Virus record (IMG/VR): IMGVR_UViG_3300020439_000059
Span: 1 to 27,257 of that record
Strand: one strand, 5' to 3'
DNA: 27,257 bases
From: a virus
Shown one piece after another: positions 10,679 through 25,026 of this stretch. Within the stretch, counting starts at the first letter, position 1; every line of letters starts with the position of its first letter. Made by a program: the position numbers and the translations under genes. The notes under the pieces are model-generated. The model worked only from the letters and a program-made list of their open reading frames with translations. It was not told the DNA's origin and did not search any database.

Positions 10679-10688
10679 TATAAATATT
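10679..10688 (-). promoter_or_regulatory. near-match to late motif (AATATTTATA)
   Basis: Minus-strand AATATTTATA, 9 of 10 to the proposed late motif, overlapping the polymerase stop codon at 10687 and ending 3 nt before the nuclease ATG. As with the site at 10047, use would give a leaderless transcript. Confidence 0.25.
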
Positions 10689-11943
10689 AAAGTTCTGAGT
10701 AATCATTACCAAACTCAACTTTAGTAGGAAATCCAAAACTTTCGAGAACGGATTTCACTTCCTTCACTACATCTTTTTCCTCAGGTGAAAACTCAAATAA
10801 GAATGAATCATAAGTGTACAGAATCGGAAGAGGTAATCCCTTATCCTTCAGTTTTTTCATTGCTTCAATGTTAAACTCTGTTTCTGTCGCTTGAAGGAGA
10901 TAATTAAAGTACTTCTGAGCCGTTGGTTGTTCAATCCATCCCAATGGTATCCTTCTACCTTTAGGTGTCGTTAGGTAACCTCTATTGATAGATTCTTCGT
11001 GCATCTTTCTAATATACGAATCAACCTTATCAAAGAATGGTATCTTTCTATCTTCATCACTCACACCACCATATAAGATTCTAAATGTTCTACCTTTACT
11101 CTCATCATACGAACAACCATATTGGTCTGCTAACCATTGGTGAACCGATGTATCGGGCAACTTATAACCAATCATCTTACCAATCAATCTAACGTGATAG
11201 GCATCGTAATCGAATTGTACGAATGATTTACCTTCTTTTGGAACGAATATCTTTCTACTACCATCCTTCTTATTAAGAGCGGAGTAATTAATCCCTAAGT
11301 GTCTGTTCGAAGGTCTGCTCGTTATTGTGTATGGGTTGTACTCCGTAAAGGCTCGAGAGAACCAAAGTGATTTCTTATTATCTTTCCACTTATCAAAAAA
11401 TTTTTCCCTATCGACCCGAATCCCCAATCGTTCTACATCTGAAAGGATAGGAATCATAGTATCATCAATCCAATCAATAGTAGGTCTAAGATTACCGAAG
11501 TCATTAGAGATATCTCCTAATACTTCCATAAACTTCATTATAGGGATTGATTTACCTAAACCATCCCTCATACCCAATCGGTGGTAAAAGTTCGTTAGAG
11601 CTTCTAATTTCTCACCAAAAGGATATAATTTATTTTCATTAAAGAAAAGGGAGGTTTGTATATCTTTTTGATTTTGTATTTTTAAATCAGTTTGTAGTAA
11701 TGCTTTTTTGTTCCAAATCCATTTTGTTTGTTTTGATTCGGATAAATCTATTTCTATAGGTTCACAATCGTTGTGATTAAATGGAAGTACAAAATCTAAG
11801 TTTTTGAATCTTACATATAAAAAAGAAACATCACAAGTCATTGGATGTCTTTCTAAATCTTCCCAAATCGGAATAACTATAGATTCTTCGTTATTCCAAT
11901 ACTCTAAGAATTGGTCTTTCTCTATTTTACTTTCTACTATCAA
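10687..11943 (-). CDS. divergent family A (Pol I-like) DNA polymerase
   Basis: A 418-aa protein whose residues about 155-418 follow the palm-fingers layout of family A polymerases: ERLGIRVDRE (palm entry), TSRPSNRHLGINYS (as in the thumb-palm SS/NLQN region), motif A FVQFDYDAYHVRL (D245, R252), motif B with K283, F287 and Y291 in the K-x3-F-x3-Y spacing, GYLTTPKGRRIPL, NYLLQATETEFNIEAM, and motif C YTYDSFLFEF (D379). Both catalytic aspartates are kept. Compared with E. coli Pol I, steric-gate E710 is His250, R754 is Tyr279 and E883 is Ser380. The N-terminal 150 residues match no exonuclease motif and may be a degraded domain. The start is uncertain: position 11943 is TTG, overlapping the DUF4385 gene by 17 nt. 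With gp43 nearby, this is probably an accessory or repair polymerase. Confidence 0.75.
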   Translation of the reverse strand: MIVESKIEKDQFLEYWNNEESIVIPIWEDLERHPMTCDVSFLYVRFKNLDFVLPFNHNDCEPIEIDLSESKQTKWIWNKKALLQTDLKIQNQKDIQTSLFFNENKLYPFGEKLEALTNFYHRLGMRDGLGKSIPIMKFMEVLGDISNDFGNLRPTIDWIDDTMIPILSDVERLGIRVDREKFFDKWKDNKKSLWFSRAFTEYNPYTITSRPSNRHLGINYSALNKKDGSRKIFVPKEGKSFVQFDYDAYHVRLIGKMIGYKLPDTSVHQWLADQYGCSYDESKGRTFRILYGGVSDEDRKIPFFDKVDSYIRKMHEESINRGYLTTPKGRRIPLGWIEQPTAQKYFNYLLQATETEFNIEAMKKLKDKGLPLPILYTYDSFLFEFSPEEKDVVKEVKSVLESFGFPTKVEFGNDYSEL

Positions 11944-14414: not shown

Positions 14415-15170
14415 TTAAGAAATTTTTGCTGAACCTACATCTATTGGTTCTCTCTTCATATGATTACCTTTAGCGAAGTTAGCACCTTCTTTAATATAAC
14501 CAGTTAAAAATGCTTTTCTGAATCTATTTGATGTATTGGCTTCTGAACCATGTACTACGTTTGAATGAAGTAATGCAACTTGTCCTTTTCTTAGGTATCC
14601 ATCTATATGTGGAAAGTTGTGGTCATCTGGTAATACACAAGGTTTACCTCTTTCATTTCTCCAATTTTTTGGGTTTGAACCAGCTCTTACTTCATCTACT
14701 TCTATTGGTAATCTACCTAAGTGATGTGAACCTTCTAAATACCAAACAGAACCATTATTTGGGTCATGATTATCAAATGCAATAGAAACATTGATTATTT
14801 CATTTGAATTACATTGTGTATAAAATATGTTTTGATGCATATCTCTACCTAATTGACCTGGTGGTTTAAAATATGCCCAAGTTTGTACACCAAAGATTTT
14901 AGAATCCATAAGAAACTCACAAGCTTCAATAACTTTTGGATGTTTCATCAAATCTGTAAGTAGTTGTGATTCTTTATGCGGATACATATATGGGTCGTAT
15001 TCTCCCCATTCATTGTTTTCATCTTCTTCTTGTCTACGGATTCTGATTCTTTCTAATTCATCAGCGTATAAATCTACTTCTTCTTCTGTTAATAGATTTA
15101 AAATAGATACTCCTTTGTATCTCCAATCAAATTCTAATTGTTGTTTTTCTAATTCGGTAAGATATTTCAT
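14415..15170 (-). CDS. PhyH-type 2-oxoglutarate oxygenase with altered metal site
   Basis: A 251-aa protein of the phytanoyl-CoA dioxygenase (PhyH) family, double-stranded beta-helix fold. Visible family features are MHQNIFYTQ (112-120), NVSIAFDNHDPNNGSVWYLEGSHHLG with the GS-W-x-x-x-GSHH turn, and LHSNVVHGSEANTSNRFRK with distal His207 and 2OG-binding Arg218. The usual facial triad is HxD...H; here the HxD position reads H112-Q-N114, and the codon is AAC on direct reading. An Asp-to-Asn change removes one iron ligand charge and may alter or abolish activity. It follows the baseplate genes at a 23-nt gap that contains TATAAATA, so late expression is plausible. The substrate is unknown. Confidence 0.78.
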   Translation of the reverse strand: MKYLTELEKQQLEFDWRYKGVSILNLLTEEEVDLYADELERIRIRRQEEDENNEWGEYDPYMYPHKESQLLTDLMKHPKVIEACEFLMDSKIFGVQTWAYFKPPGQLGRDMHQNIFYTQCNSNEIINVSIAFDNHDPNNGSVWYLEGSHHLGRLPIEVDEVRAGSNPKNWRNERGKPCVLPDDHNFPHIDGYLRKGQVALLHSNVVHGSEANTSNRFRKAFLTGYIKEGANFAKGNHMKREPIDVGSAKIS

Positions 15171-19832: not shown

Positions 19833-21980
19833 TTATATAGCTACTCCAAATTTATTTTCTGTACTTCGTTGTACCACTTTTGATACTCCATCTGCAACTT
19901 TTCTACCATCCATATTGACTTGGACTTGTAAATTTTTAATTTCGTTTCCTAAATTTTCTATAGCGGATACTATAGCTCCACTACCCATAATATCACCACC
20001 TAATGGTATTACTGCTTCCGGTCCTGCTTCTCCTATTAAAGCGTTTGTTGGACCTGTTACAATACCACCTTTAGCCATTGGAGTTGAAAATTCTGAACCT
20101 TGAGTTGAACCACCGATATCTGCACGAGCATCCCTACCAATACTATCACCACCAGCTCCAAAAAACGAACCTATACTACTAAAAAATCCTGAAATCCTAT
20201 CAAATAATGGCATAACTAAATCAACAATTCCCATTATAATATTATAAACAACACTAATTACTGCTCCAATAGTGTTAAATACTGCTCCTAATATAGAACC
20301 AACAATTTTAAATGCTGGTAAGAGTATCTTACCTGCTAAATTTAATAATTGTAATACTACCTTTCCAACTGGTGCTAAAGCATCCATAATTGTTGAACCT
20401 ATAGCTCCAAATGTATTCTTTAGTTCATCTGTTAAACCTTGTAATTCTTGTTGTTGTTGATTTCTTCTATTTTGAGTAGCTAAATCACTTTCAGTAATAT
20501 CTTGTAATTTTTTTCCACTTTCTAATAATTGTTGAGCAGCTTTTAATCTTTCCTTATCTTGTCCACCAAACCTTTCTCTTAATCTAAGTTGTTTTCTTAG
20601 TTCACCAACTTCCATTCCACTAGCTTTAGCAATTGAATCTAATTGGAATTTGTTTAGGTTATTTAAATCAACTGTTGATTCTAATGAATCTAAAACAGAT
20701 TGTTGAGCTCCTAATATATCACCTGTTGCTGCTAACTCTCTTGCTTTGTTAAAGTTAATAGATTGACCTAACATCGCTGAAGCTTCTAACTCAGCCGTTA
20801 TACTATTTTCAAAATCTAATAAACCTTCTGAAACTTTTGCTGCTTCAGTTAACGATGTACCTAATGCTGCTGCTTCAATGGCTGCACTTGCTAATTCCTT
20901 AGCTGAACCTCCAAAAAATACCGCTGCAGTTTCAGCATTTTCAGCAATATCTTTTATAACTTGAGATGGTGCAACACCAACTTGGTTTGCTAACTCTACT
21001 GTTTGTGCCGTTAATGCCTGAGCTGCTTCTTGCGATGCACCACTAATATCTTGAAAGATTCCATTTACTTGTGCTGCTTCTGATGTAGCGATACCAAAGT
21101 TTTTATTTAAAATTACTAATGATTTTAAAACTTCAGCTGATGGTTGTTCTATACCTCTAAATTCGTTTGTAAAATCAGCTGCTGCTTGTGCAACATCTTC
21201 AAACGATGCTCCAATACCAGCAGTATCAGTTTTTACTTTAGCTATATTAGCTGCAGTTTGTTCTGTATTAGCATTAAGTAAACCAGTTTCTTCTCTAAAC
21301 TTTCGAGCTGCTTCATCTATAGCCGTAAATGCTTTTACTCCAGCCATAATGGCTGCTCCTATTGCTACAATGGCTAGTGTTACTGGATTGATTGCTGCTC
21401 TTAAAAATCCAAGTGATTTTCCACCAGCTGCTCTTAATGCTTCAAATCCACCCGCTCCATCTCTAAATGAGGAAGCAAATTCAGTTGTAAATGTCATAGC
21501 TGCATCATTGATACTTTCTTTCATACCATCGATAGGTCCTCTTAAAAGTGCACCAAATGGACCTAACCCATCTACTATACTATCTAATTGTTGATTAAGA
21601 TTACTAGCGAACTCTTGTGAAGCTGCATCAGCTGCTTCTATAGCATTAATTTTATTTTCTTCGGTTCTTAAAGTTTGATTAGTAACATCTTTGAGTGCTC
21701 TTGCCTTAGCCAATGAACCATTTTCTGTTCTTCTCTTATCATTAGCTAATTTTTTAAAATCAGCTTCATTTTTTAAAATGGCTTTTGTTATATCTGATTT
21801 ATCTTCAAGTCCATCAAGTGATTTTTTAAGATTTTCTTGAAATTTTGCTTCAGCAGATGACATACCTTTCATCTCTTTACCTGTATCGGTTATAGTTGTT
21901 TTTATATCCTTTAGTAAAGATGAAGATACCTTTAATACATCTTGGTATTCCTGTTCTAATTCTGCTTTAGTTTTAGCCAT
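19833..21980 (-). CDS. tail tape measure protein
   Basis: A 715-aa tape measure protein, which sets tail length and passes into the host during ejection. It has long helical/coiled-coil regions at the N-terminus (residues 1-135) and centre, Ala-rich repeats, a hydrophobic segment at about 198-218 (PVTLAIVAIGAAIMAGVKAF) and a long hydrophobic stretch at about 540-600 (LLNLAGKILLPAFKIVGSI onwards). Near the C-terminus it carries the signature GGIVTGPTNALIGEAGPEAVIPL, found in many phage tape measures. The length is near T4 gp29 (590 aa). It lies behind the frameshifting assembly chaperone and a small basic ORF, the common chaperone-then-tape-measure order. Confidence 0.88.
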   Translation of the reverse strand: MAKTKAELEQEYQDVLKVSSSLLKDIKTTITDTGKEMKGMSSAEAKFQENLKKSLDGLEDKSDITKAILKNEADFKKLANDKRRTENGSLAKARALKDVTNQTLRTEENKINAIEAADAASQEFASNLNQQLDSIVDGLGPFGALLRGPIDGMKESINDAAMTFTTEFASSFRDGAGGFEALRAAGGKSLGFLRAAINPVTLAIVAIGAAIMAGVKAFTAIDEAARKFREETGLLNANTEQTAANIAKVKTDTAGIGASFEDVAQAAADFTNEFRGIEQPSAEVLKSLVILNKNFGIATSEAAQVNGIFQDISGASQEAAQALTAQTVELANQVGVAPSQVIKDIAENAETAAVFFGGSAKELASAAIEAAALGTSLTEAAKVSEGLLDFENSITAELEASAMLGQSINFNKARELAATGDILGAQQSVLDSLESTVDLNNLNKFQLDSIAKASGMEVGELRKQLRLRERFGGQDKERLKAAQQLLESGKKLQDITESDLATQNRRNQQQQELQGLTDELKNTFGAIGSTIMDALAPVGKVVLQLLNLAGKILLPAFKIVGSILGAVFNTIGAVISVVYNIIMGIVDLVMPLFDRISGFFSSIGSFFGAGGDSIGRDARADIGGSTQGSEFSTPMAKGGIVTGPTNALIGEAGPEAVIPLGGDIMGSGAIVSAIENLGNEIKNLQVQVNMDGRKVADGVSKVVQRSTENKFGVAI

Positions 21981-21983
21981 CTA

Positions 21984-22223
21984 TTATAATCCTGCGTATT
22001 TTTTTAAACCGGGTGCAATTTTTACACCAGCTTTTTCTGCTTTTTTAATTTGATTTCTTAAATCACCTGCTGCCTTATCAGCTTTATCTACTGCTTTTTT
22101 AAAATCAGAGCTGTTTTTTAACCTCTTTGATAAAATCCTAGCAAACATTTTTTGTACGAAACCTTCTGTTTTATAAGATTTAGTATTTCTGATATAATCA
22201 GCTTGTTCTTTTGTTAGTTTCAT
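21984..22223 (-). CDS. small basic protein between assembly chaperone and tape measure
   Basis: A 79-aa lysine-rich helical protein (MKLTKEQADYIRNTKSYKTEGF, then KAVDKADKAAGDLRNQIKKAEKAG). I place the start at the ATG at 22223 because AAGGAG lies 7 nt upstream; an in-frame ATG at 22247 has no ribosome site. No family is recognised. It follows a terminator and a late-type motif, so it heads the transcript carrying the tape measure and baseplate genes. A role in tape measure folding is possible from position. Confidence 0.65.
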   Translation of the reverse strand: MKLTKEQADYIRNTKSYKTEGFVQKMFARILSKRLKNSSDFKKAVDKADKAAGDLRNQIKKAEKAGVKIAPGLKKYAGL

Positions 22224-22270: not shown

Positions 22271-22300
22271 AAAAAAAAAGTGAGGAATTATTTCCTCACT
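22271..22300 (-). terminator. rho-independent terminator
   Basis: Minus strand: AGTGAGGAA-ATAA-TTCCTCACT, a perfect 9-bp stem with a 4-nt loop, followed by a run of nine T in all. The stop codon of the frameshift extension lies in the loop, so the stem is right at the gene end. Confidence 0.85.
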
Positions 22301-22515
22301 CTCACGTTTGGTTTTCTGACATTTGATGATGTTTTCTTCATCGCTTTATCTCTTTGCTTTTGTTCATTTTTCTTAGCTTCTGATAATTTTTTATAATGGA
22401 AGTTTCTAATGTGAACAGGCATTTCGTAAACATCCTTAAATGTAAAACCATTTCCATAGTAACACATTTCAAAAATTTGATTGTGTACTATTGAAGAATA
22501 GTTATTCGGAAGGCC
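22288..22515 (-). CDS. frameshift extension of the gp26-like tail assembly chaperone
   Basis: A 75-codon frame in the +1 frame after the gp26-like gene, ending inside the terminator loop. It is open from 22545, just after a TGA, and has no credible start of its own: the first ATG is 16 codons in, within the conserved-looking part, with no ribosome site. It encodes GLPNNYSSIVHNQIFEMCYY, then GNGFTFKDVYEMPVHIRNF and HYKKLSEAKKNEQ, resembling the C-terminal domains of phage tail assembly chaperones (short helices, then an MP-x-x-x-R-x-F turn), and finishes with a very basic tail. A +1 slip at TTT-TTT-T (22516-22522) would give a 325-aa fusion. This piece fills what would otherwise be a 250-base gap. 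See finding on frameshifting. Confidence 0.75.
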   Translation of the reverse strand, partial: GLPNNYSSIVHNQIFEMCYYGNGFTFKDVYEMPVHIRNFHYKKLSEAKKNEQKQRDKAMKKTSSNVRKPNVRVRK

Positions 22516-23266
22516 AAAAAAACCCGACTCCCATTGGGATAGGAGTCATCTCCTTCTCTCCTGTATTTGGGTTATCGTACTCAAACTCCATTTTCATATC
22601 AGGTTGGAGTTCCTTAATATGAGTCCTAAAAGCTCTCGTGTCTCTAGCTAAAAATTTGTTATTTACAAAATCTACTATTGATTTAGTATCTTCTTTACCA
22701 TCAACTGATTTAATCATATATCTGTATCTGGTTGTTAACTCTGCTGATGCTCCATCTTTATTTAATCTATTCATAGCTCTTACATCAGTATCAATCGCTT
22801 TTTCATCACCATGTGTAAGCATTTTCCACTTGATAACATTTTTACCTACTGGAGTTACCCATTCGTAAATATTTTCTCTGTTAAGTTTATCTAAATCAAC
22901 ATCTTTTGTTTGTACTTTACTTAAGTCTATTTGTAGTTCTGTTTGTCCTTCTATTGATGGTACTTGTATTTTATATTCAGGCCCATATCCTAAAATACGA
23001 GTTGCTAATACAATAGCATTTTTATCACCGATTATAATATCATCAATGTTTATTTTTTTATCAGCGATAATAGATTCAAATAGTTTATCTAATACTACAC
23101 CCTTAGAAATTAAGTTTTGTGATGCTAAAATTTCTTCTTCTTTAGCTGTCATATACTTAATTTCCAACTCACCACTAGATAACGGGTGGTCTTCGGGATA
23201 ACATTTACCTTGTGATGGAAGTGAGATTACTTCCGTTGGAAAGTCATATTTTTTATTTTCTGCCAT
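22502..23266 (-). CDS. gp26-like baseplate/tail assembly chaperone (zero-frame product)
   Basis: A 254-aa protein resembling T4 gp26-family proteins of marine T4-like phages: LPSQGKCYPEDHPLSSGELEIKYMTAKEEEIL at the N-terminus (proline-glycine turn then strand, then T-x-x-EE-x-L), a middle with ILGYGPEYKIQV and EIQ-type strands, and ends FFWPSE. In T4, gp26 is needed for hub assembly; in phages with the same gene order this position belongs to the chaperone that coats the tape measure. Just before the stop the codons read GGG TTT TTT TGG, a seven-T run suited to slippage into the frame of the extension at 22288-22515. A late-type motif (23289-23298) lies 22 nt upstream of the ATG. It follows the oxygenase gene. 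Confidence 0.72.
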   Translation of the reverse strand: MAENKKYDFPTEVISLPSQGKCYPEDHPLSSGELEIKYMTAKEEEILASQNLISKGVVLDKLFESIIADKKINIDDIIIGDKNAIVLATRILGYGPEYKIQVPSIEGQTELQIDLSKVQTKDVDLDKLNRENIYEWVTPVGKNVIKWKMLTHGDEKAIDTDVRAMNRLNKDGASAELTTRYRYMIKSVDGKEDTKSIVDFVNNKFLARDTRAFRTHIKELQPDMKMEFEYDNPNTGEKEMTPIPMGVGFFWPSE

Positions 23267-23312: not shown

Positions 23313-23918
23313 TTAGAATTTTTCATAATAAAATCCTCTTTGAAAATTTTTACCCATTGATTTATTAGAATAAACACAAAGATATGCTCTTCTTGGTTGG
23401 TTAGATAAATTTATTTTAGATGAATGATATGTATTACCTTCAATCATTAGTATATCTCCTACCTTTGGATATAATGTTATCCATTCATCATCCAATACAC
23501 TAATTGCACCATTCTCTTTGGTAAAATCATCCAAAATCAACATACAATTTATAGTTAATAGTTCTTCATCATTTGGAAATGGGCCGTACTGATTATCTCT
23601 ATGTGGTTCAAATGAAAACTCTTCATATGGTTCTTTAACAACTATTTGGTCATTAAATAGATATGGTGTTGGAATATATGGAGTTATGATATCATACATA
23701 AACTTAGAAGTGTAGATATCATATAGTTTCTTATTTTCTTCATTAGATGATAAATCACAACTTGATGCCATATCTAGCCCTTTCCAATATATACCTGAAC
23801 CATTTGGTTTAGGTTTTCCTTCATATTCTTTGATTCTTTCCTTTACCTTTAAGGTATAACTCTGAAGGTATTCAACTATATCAGATGGTATTATATTTTC
23901 TATTAATTTATATTTCAT
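23313..23918 (-). CDS. 2-oxoglutarate/Fe(II)-dependent oxygenase
   Basis: A 201-aa oxygenase of the prolyl-hydroxylase/2OG-Fe(II) superfamily. The facial triad is visible: H106-R-D108 (FEPHRDNQYG) and distal H165 (GNTYHSS), with a 2OG-binding Arg at 176/177 (NQPRRAYLCVYS). The spacing of about 57 residues between HxD and distal His is normal for the fold. It should hydroxylate or otherwise oxidise a protein, nucleotide or small molecule using iron and 2-oxoglutarate; the substrate is unknown. The start overlaps the methyltransferase gene by 11 nt, so the two are coupled. Unlike the second oxygenase at 14415, its metal site is intact. Confidence 0.8.
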   Translation of the reverse strand: MKYKLIENIIPSDIVEYLQSYTLKVKERIKEYEGKPKPNGSGIYWKGLDMASSCDLSSNEENKKLYDIYTSKFMYDIITPYIPTPYLFNDQIVVKEPYEEFSFEPHRDNQYGPFPNDEELLTINCMLILDDFTKENGAISVLDDEWITLYPKVGDILMIEGNTYHSSKINLSNQPRRAYLCVYSNKSMGKNFQRGFYYEKF

Positions 23919-24468
23919 ATTTTATCCAACTTGTATCTCTATATATTTGAGTAGGTTCACCAATTAATTCATTAACTGCTTTTATTACACCAGGCCATCT
24001 TTTATGATAATCATGTCCTGCTATTACACCACCTTTTTTTAATTTCGGTAAACATAATTTTATATCTCTTTTTACATCTTCATATTCGTGATTTGCATCA
24101 ATGTAAATAAAATCAAAAGTTTCGTTTTCAAACGTATCAATAATATTGTAACTAAAATCTTTATGAAGAGTTATATTATTAAAGAATCTAGTATTCTGTT
24201 TAAACTCATTTTCTATAAACTCCCATTCGTATCTATGCCACTCGTTGTAGTTTTCATAACCTTCAAAGGGGTCTACACAATGTATTTCAGAAAACATATT
24301 AGATGATGCAAACATCATAGTTGATTCTCCCATATAAGAACCTACTTCTAACATTTTCATTTTTTCTTTGGTATGGTTTTCTAATTTTTTAAGTAAATCA
24401 AAAATACCGAAAAAACTACTATTTGGTTCTTCTTTTAACCAACTTATATTAAATCGTTGTGTGAACAT
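23908..24468 (-). CDS. class I SAM-dependent methyltransferase
   Basis: A 186-aa Rossmann-fold methyltransferase of the Methyltransf_24 type. Motif I is KMLEVGSYMGEST (38-50), motif II is IHCVDPFEGY (62-70) with an acidic residue for the SAM ribose, then FDFIYIDANHEYEDVKRDI (118-136) and GGVIAGHDY (146-154). The family is common in sugar and glycan modification clusters and in phages, and lacks the NPPY/DPPY motif of adenine or N4-cytosine DNA methylases. It lies just after the tail-tube terminator and overlaps the oxygenase, forming a two-gene insert in the tail module. The acceptor cannot be told from sequence. Confidence 0.8.
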   Translation of the reverse strand: MFTQRFNISWLKEEPNSSFFGIFDLLKKLENHTKEKMKMLEVGSYMGESTMMFASSNMFSEIHCVDPFEGYENYNEWHRYEWEFIENEFKQNTRFFNNITLHKDFSYNIIDTFENETFDFIYIDANHEYEDVKRDIKLCLPKLKKGGVIAGHDYHKRWPGVIKAVNELIGEPTQIYRDTSWIKYEI

Positions 24469-24537: not shown

Positions 24538-25026
24538 TTAGAATTCTAAGATAGCGTAATCATAAGATAACGTCAATGTGATTTCAGCTGGGTCATTAGA
24601 AGCCCAATCTAAATCGTTAAATGCAGCTGATGTAATGAATGCACCTTTTAGTGTCCATTGTTCAATCTTATCACCTACAGGCCCTAACATAAAGAAGTTT
24701 ACATCTTTCTTATAGAAATCTGCGTATCCATCTCTACCAGTTAGTGATTCATGTGAAGTTCTTACCCACTCCATCACTTGTTGTGCTCCAGAAGGAACAA
24801 TTGGGTCATATAGAGTAATCTCTACATCTTGCCACTCACCTTTTCCTTTCAGTTTTCTCTTAACGTTAATATGGTCTAACGTTACAGGTTCGAACTGAAT
24901 TGTCGGTCTGTTGGCTGTTTTTATTAAATATGAATCTATACCATCGATGTTCATGATGAATCTGTTCTTCATCTTCGGTTCGAAGTTGGTATAAAACATT
25001 TCGTTGAATTCTAATACTTCTGCCAT
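24538..25026 (-). CDS. 19: tail tube protein (gp19-like)
   Basis: A 162-aa major tail tube protein, almost the length of T4 gp19 (163 aa), which polymerises inside the sheath. The family pattern is clear: KNRFIMNIDGIDSYLIKTANRPTIQF near the N-terminus, LDHINVKRKLKGKGEWQDVEITLYDPI, a VMEWVR helix, then LGPVGDKIEQWTLKGAFITSAAFNDLDWAS and the final strand ITLTLSYDYAILEF. It lies 50 nt after the sheath gene in the standard sheath-tube order. AGGAG is 10 nt before the ATG. The gap carries the late-type motif at 25050 and a terminator follows, as suits a very highly expressed structural gene. Confidence 0.93.
   Translation of the reverse strand: MAEVLEFNEMFYTNFEPKMKNRFIMNIDGIDSYLIKTANRPTIQFEPVTLDHINVKRKLKGKGEWQDVEITLYDPIVPSGAQQVMEWVRTSHESLTGRDGYADFYKKDVNFFMLGPVGDKIEQWTLKGAFITSAAFNDLDWASNDPAEITLTLSYDYAILEF

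Follow-up and report, generated by a model that had tools for sequence, protein, structure and literature searches.

A gp26-like tail assembly chaperone gene with a conserved second frame, probably reached by a +1 ribosomal frameshift

The chaperone locus and its two frames

The window (the whole stretch of DNA that was analysed, 27,257 nt) is a 27-kb virus fragment, whose closest isolate is the Flavobacterium phage immuto (45% identity in the chaperone protein). On its minus strand, the tail assembly chaperone gene sits between the gene of a gp19-like tail tube protein (24538–25026; PF06841, E 2.5e-9; phrog_4542, E 9e-31), located upstream, and that of a 715-aa tape measure protein (19833–21980; phrog_1533, tail length tape measure, E 6e-4), located downstream. 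This order of tail tube, chaperone and tape measure genes is common to immuto, SP-15 and LIS04. The gap between the chaperone and tape measure genes holds a small basic ORF of 78 aa (21984–22220) that matched no known family, and genes for a PhyH-type dioxygenase and a Methyltransf_24 methyltransferase (23313–24468) are flanked by the tail tube and chaperone genes. A second PhyH gene is present at 14415–15170. We also observed a 418-aa protein (10687–11943) having a DNA polymerase family A match (C-terminal part only, below the Pfam cut-off); the remainder of this polymerase may be encoded elsewhere.

The zero frame of the chaperone gene (22502–23266, minus strand) encodes a protein of 254 aa, TAC-N, and ends with GGG TTT TTT TGG CCT TCC GAA TAA. 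Here exactly seven T (22522–22516) form the Phe-Phe codons 249–250 and the first base of TGG, giving the putative slip site TTT_TTT_T, which is preceded by the codon GGG (22523–22525). From shortly before the T-run, the +1 frame has no stop until a TAA at 22290–22288, and its part beyond the run is an extension of 75 codons plus TAA (22288–22515, minus strand; TAC-C domain). Between the upstream stop of this frame and the slip site there is no ATG, GTG or TTG in the window, and from its first ATG the extension would be only 59 aa long. Shifting to +1, with TGGC read as one step, would give a 325-aa fusion, TAC-NC (22288–23266, minus strand), whose translation has no internal stop; the corresponding fusion is likewise uninterrupted in the relatives. 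The first-pass annotation of this DNA had given the 254-aa frame, the seven-T run, the 75-codon frame and the 59 residues with correct coordinates and counts, and its remark that the +1 frame lacks a credible start also holds.

The extension ends, as had been noticed earlier, inside an intrinsic terminator (22271–22299, minus strand). A perfect hairpin, GTGAGGAA-ATAA-TTCCTCAC-T9 (22299–22271), has the TAA of the extension in its loop and is kept in 15 relatives, with a consensus fold of −15.2 compared with −0.2 for shuffled columns. One lineage (L029/L030) has compensating changes on both sides of the stem. A conserved intrinsic terminator closes the chaperone gene ahead of the tape measure gene.

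By profile and fold, the window chaperone belongs to the T4 gp26/phrog_150/PF12322 family. TAC-N matched phrog_150, "baseplate hub" (E 9.3e-8 for the window), as did 30 of 31 aligned sequences, and it matched PF12322, T4_baseplate, with E 5.9e-5 and 23.3 bits, just under the cut-off of 24.5. Its AlphaFold2 model (pLDDT 90.5) found the baseplate hub assembly proteins of SP-15, Campylobacter phage CP220 and T4-like phages in BFVD, with E values from 2e-17 to 3e-7.

The extension carries the motif GFxxxxVYxMPxxLRxFYxxKLxxxKKKE and was modelled by AlphaFold2 as three helices (pLDDT 82), the two halves having been folded separately and not as the 325-aa fusion. It aligns with the extension of the group of SP-15, LIS04 and GXN1 (hhalign 96%, E 1e-9). 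The first-pass annotation had likened it to the C-terminal part of tail assembly chaperones, and hhalign bears this out: the extension is homologous to those of known T4-like chaperones, namely the group of LR756511, which uses a −1 shift (E 5e-6), and, more weakly, the cyanophages (E 3.3e-4; none of 200 column shuffles scored as high). A direct match to the C-terminus of T4 gp51 was not significant (E 0.16). Nor was the fold of HK97 gp13, a solved tail chaperone, in a search of PDB folds (E 2.6).

Conservation of the second frame and of the slip site

A scan of IMG/VR gave 37 relatives, and a second scan using the alignment added 80 out of at least 599. There were 117 sequences having the 3′ end, the window included, and 91 of them were non-redundant. 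Seven T in the same phase were found in 116 of the 117, the exception (L121) having TTC_TTT_T. The +1 frame was complete for 55–110 codons in 87 of the 91 non-redundant sequences, and in three others, to judge from the lengths of the contigs, it runs off the end. In one relative (L026, 4048–4110), a 5-base deletion breaks the extension, either as an assembly error or as a defective copy.

Since homopolymers are prone to error, one might suppose that the number of T was misread by sequencing or assembly and that the true locus is a single gene with six T. Because nearly all relatives keep the run in phase, such an error is excluded; the run is present in more than 100 independent contigs with the zero-frame stop soon after, and equivalent sites exist in isolates. 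The relatives have already refuted this explanation, whose probability we regard as negligible.

In pairs with a TAC-N identity of >72%, TAC-N had a dN/dS ratio of 0.163 and the extension a ratio of 0.170, whereas the DNA of the extension gave 1.42 and 1.25 in the other two frames. Judged from these ratios, the extension is under purifying selection equal to that of the main frame; a lack of such selection, which the first-pass annotation had named as a reason to drop the frameshift, was not observed.

The T-run itself is rare elsewhere. TTT_TTT_T in phase occurs once among the 8,149 codons of the window, at the slip site, which is also the sole T-run of seven or more within a gene on the minus strand of the window. 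In 90 relatives, we counted 90 occurrences in 68,421 codons, equal to one per chaperone gene. The pattern is not due to chance.

We further compared how often relatives having the same amino acid use the same codon. The mean identity over the ORF was 0.569, and the top window of seven codons, with a mean of 0.845, was exactly that of codons 248–254, in which the codons of F249 and F250 are invariant (identity 1.0). Codon 251 is either Trp (TGG) or Tyr (TAC in 46 sequences and TAT in 4), its first base always being T, whereas Tyr elsewhere is TAT in 80% of the cases. Dual coding accounts for part of the constraint from codon 251 onward. The codon before the run is also biased: its third base is T in none of the 91 non-redundant relatives against 58 expected from codon usage, and GGG accounts for 38 of the 44 Gly codons at this position but for 5% of those elsewhere; these counts come from related sequences that are not independent, and the bias is still far outside codon usage. 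A base other than T before the run would remove a competing U_UUU_UUU heptamer for −1 shifting and would cap the length of the run.

Alignment of homologues and inspection of synonymous sites had both been suggested as checks in the first-pass annotation, and both agree with its proposal of a programmed frameshift, for which the conservation of the frames and the T-run, the selection and the synonymous constraint at the slip site argue together. Conservation, dN/dS, the distribution of start codons and the codon constraint all characterize a conserved second frame that is reached only by recoding.

Could the second frame be a separate small gene, having its own start and translated by coupling? 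Two relatives, L244 and L249, are of this kind, with a non-slippery site and the C-terminal domain starting from its own ATG a few bases past the stop, and GenBank records carry annotations of a short downstream ORF. But in 38 of the 91 relatives, including the window, a start codon is lacking from the +1 frame ahead of the slip site; the conservation starts right at the slip, and the internal ATGs would truncate the conserved domain and are themselves unconserved. We find a separate gene extremely improbable and retain recoding as the probable way into the second frame. In the records, the extension is a separate hypothetical ORF in Mel-JY01, immuto and SP-15 and is left blank in LIS04 and GXN1. 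It had been predicted that normal gene calling would miss the extension; the long form was indeed absent or split in every annotated +1 record that we examined.

Direction and proposed mechanism of the shift

The first-pass annotation had left the direction as +1 or −2. On the seven U of the window sequence, tRNA-Phe could also re-pair after a −2 slip, a shift of the kind reportedly used by phage Mu, and the fusion would then be longer by one Phe (326 aa). The relatives that carry the +1 domain decide between the two. Their sites are AGC_UUU_CUU in immuto, AAC_UUU_CUA in LR756508, UUC_UUU_CGU in GXN1 (Streptococcus), UUU_UUU_CAC in SP-15, UUU_UUU_AGU in LIS04, UCC_UUU_UUU_UGG in RM378, UUC_UUU_UGG in L234–L248 (L244 apart) and UUC_UUU_U in L121. 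The direction is +1 and not −2, because relatives with UUU_C or UUC_UUU_U cannot re-pair at −2: there is no UUU at this position in immuto and LR756508 (UUU_C), in L121 and L234–L248 (UUC_UUU_U) or in GXN1 (UUC_UUU_C). The +1 half of the earlier proposal therefore stands, and its −2 half, which we judge highly unlikely, does not.

Among these sites, the first Phe codon alone fits a +1 shift in immuto, LR756508 and LIS04, and the second alone fits in GXN1, L121 and L234–L248. The best reading of the comparison is that a tRNA-Phe paired with UUU would slip forward by one base and pair with UUU or UUC, this being the sole event that fits every site.

The same short runs bear on slippage of RNA polymerase, by which some mRNAs would have six U and would be read through without any ribosomal shift. 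The homopolymer is held at seven and its preceding base is never T, both of which would suit such slippage, though seven T are short for it. We set transcriptional slippage aside because distant relatives have short T-runs, of three or four T, and share the arrangement; the chance that it explains the locus is in our view very slim. A ribosomal +1 shift is thus the reading followed below.

The site does not have the features of the well-known types of shift. It is not a −1 heptamer of the form X_XXY_YYZ, as the phase is TTT_TTT_T, the preceding base is not T and the extension is in +1. It also differs from an RF2-type +1 site, as the A-site codon is TGG, TAC or TAT and the constraint extends back only to codon 248. 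At the RF2 site (prfB, CUU_UGA), the tRNA in the P site, on a U-rich codon, also pairs anew one base further on, as proposed here, but it does so with the help of a Shine-Dalgarno sequence and of a stop codon that occupies the A site, while the window group has UGG, UAC or UAU there and no conserved element of the Shine-Dalgarno type. G-rich codons do precede the site, and a Shine-Dalgarno-like stimulator was considered for them; codon conservation is at or below average two codons upstream. As it begins only one codon upstream of the slip, at codon 248, no such stimulator is conserved. No conserved RNA structure emerged from consensus folds computed for the site itself and for the sequence on either side of it (a 3-bp coincidence only). 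The UUU_U tetranucleotide alone occurs in 45 places in the genes of the window, and therefore it cannot be all that a shift requires. The PRFect paper reports that, for +1 shifts, UUU and CCC come next in slipperiness behind CUU of the RF2 site.

Both coding frames are conserved, the slip site is invariant, the relatives give the direction of the shift, selection acts on TAC-N as well as on the extension, and the neighbouring genes suit a tail chaperone. On these grounds, we consider it highly probable that one locus yields, via a +1 slip, a short and a long version of a T4-like tail assembly chaperone of the gp26/gp51 family. Most ribosomes would end translation at the zero-frame TAA, with the 254-aa TAC-N as their product. 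In a fraction of ribosomes, predicted to be low, peptidyl-tRNA-Phe would be on UUU in the P site, with a presumably slow UGG (UAC in relatives) in the A site; it would re-pair one base forward on UUU, and reading would resume at GGC in the +1 frame. The choice of the slipping Phe codon in the window phage is one that we infer. The product would be the 325-aa TAC-NC, carrying the C-terminal helical TAC-C domain that is not otherwise made. By analogy with lambda G/GT, the tape measure protein would be covered by many copies of TAC-N and few of TAC-NC, which would bring in the tail tube subunits, and the chaperone function is predicted on this basis.

Modes of shifting in the gp26 family

Two-frame tail chaperones are classical. 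Frameshifting is reportedly found in several T4-like groups, and genes 26 and 51 are said to serve as the chaperone in T4. Lambda G/GT resembles the window gene in its place before the tape measure gene, in having a short form and a rare long form and in slipping shortly before the first frame ends, but shifts −1 and not +1; the two are compared by arrangement and not by sequence relation. The haloarchaeal myovirus HSTV-2 (PMC5009743) and actinobacteriophages, whose forward-shift tail chaperones are among the PRFect training cases (PRFect paper), are reported to have a +1 chaperone shift like the one proposed for the window; they are other phage groups and are likened by direction only.

Within the family, the phrog_150 profile covers both halves, and P-SSM2, S-PM2, HTVC008M and Cr30 match it in two pieces with an offset of −1. 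The sites are (NN)T_TTT_TTC in P-SSM2, S-PM2 and 24 further cyanophage-like loci and (NN)T_TTT_TTT in Caulobacter phage Cr30; for the pelagiphage HTVC008M the −1 assignment is taken from the frame offset. Agrobacterium phage Atu_ph07 and LR756511 with its relatives L231–L233 also use −1, with a T_TTT_TTC heptamer. All these phages have homologous TAC-N and C-terminal domains and slip at the equivalent Phe-Phe, but they shift −1, whereas the window group would shift +1 at TTT_TTT_T or UUU_C.

T4 shares with the window the TAC-N family (phrog_150, PF12322), the terminal Phe-Phe and the existence of two forms, one short and one long. Its forms are in two divergent genes, 26 and 51, that lie apart, and the C-terminus of gp26 (..KEFFELL) is encoded by the non-slippery TTC TTT G, whereas in the window a single gene would give both by a +1 shift. 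L244 (2690–3030) and L249 (2680–3000), which have TTC_TTG or TTC_CTT at the site and the C-terminal domain as a separate gene, are a natural control at the sequence level: slipperiness is lost and the domain gains its own start. This separate gene carries an extra N-terminal stretch.

The family tree requires at least three changes of mode, with LR756511, Atu_ph07 and RM378 being placed on long branches with weak supports, and it suggests that the direction of the shift switched more than once within the chaperone family. We hold tentatively, at slightly less than even confidence, the broader view that the same terminal Phe-Phe was re-used for −1, +1 or no shift, the direction having changed more than once, and that the +1 shift would be obtained from about 8 bases, without a stop codon, a Shine-Dalgarno sequence or an RNA structure.

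A 2016 review (PMC5009743) described the tail-chaperone frameshift as conserved in long-tailed phages "except T4", and the tail assembly chaperone genes of T4-like phages have since been identified (Vladimirov, Gautam and Davidson, Virology 2022, 566:9–15). The link from T4 genes to the two-frame chaperones, which the first-pass annotation had presented as a connection that this frameshift would make, is not new and was published in 2022. The new part is the opposite direction, because the other frameshifting T4-like groups examined use −1. As far as the 2022 paper can be judged from the papers citing it, what our comparison of sequences would add is a +1 shift in the gp26 family, its direction being assigned by comparison.

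These results bring in numerous phages, from marine and other sources, that would shift the opposite way at equivalent codons. They form a natural series in which to ask, with the protein nearly constant, why a −1 shift, a +1 shift or none is used, and they offer a short, stimulus-poor +1 site for measurement. They also provide a rule for re-annotation, by which the long form would be restored in the records of the +1 phages.
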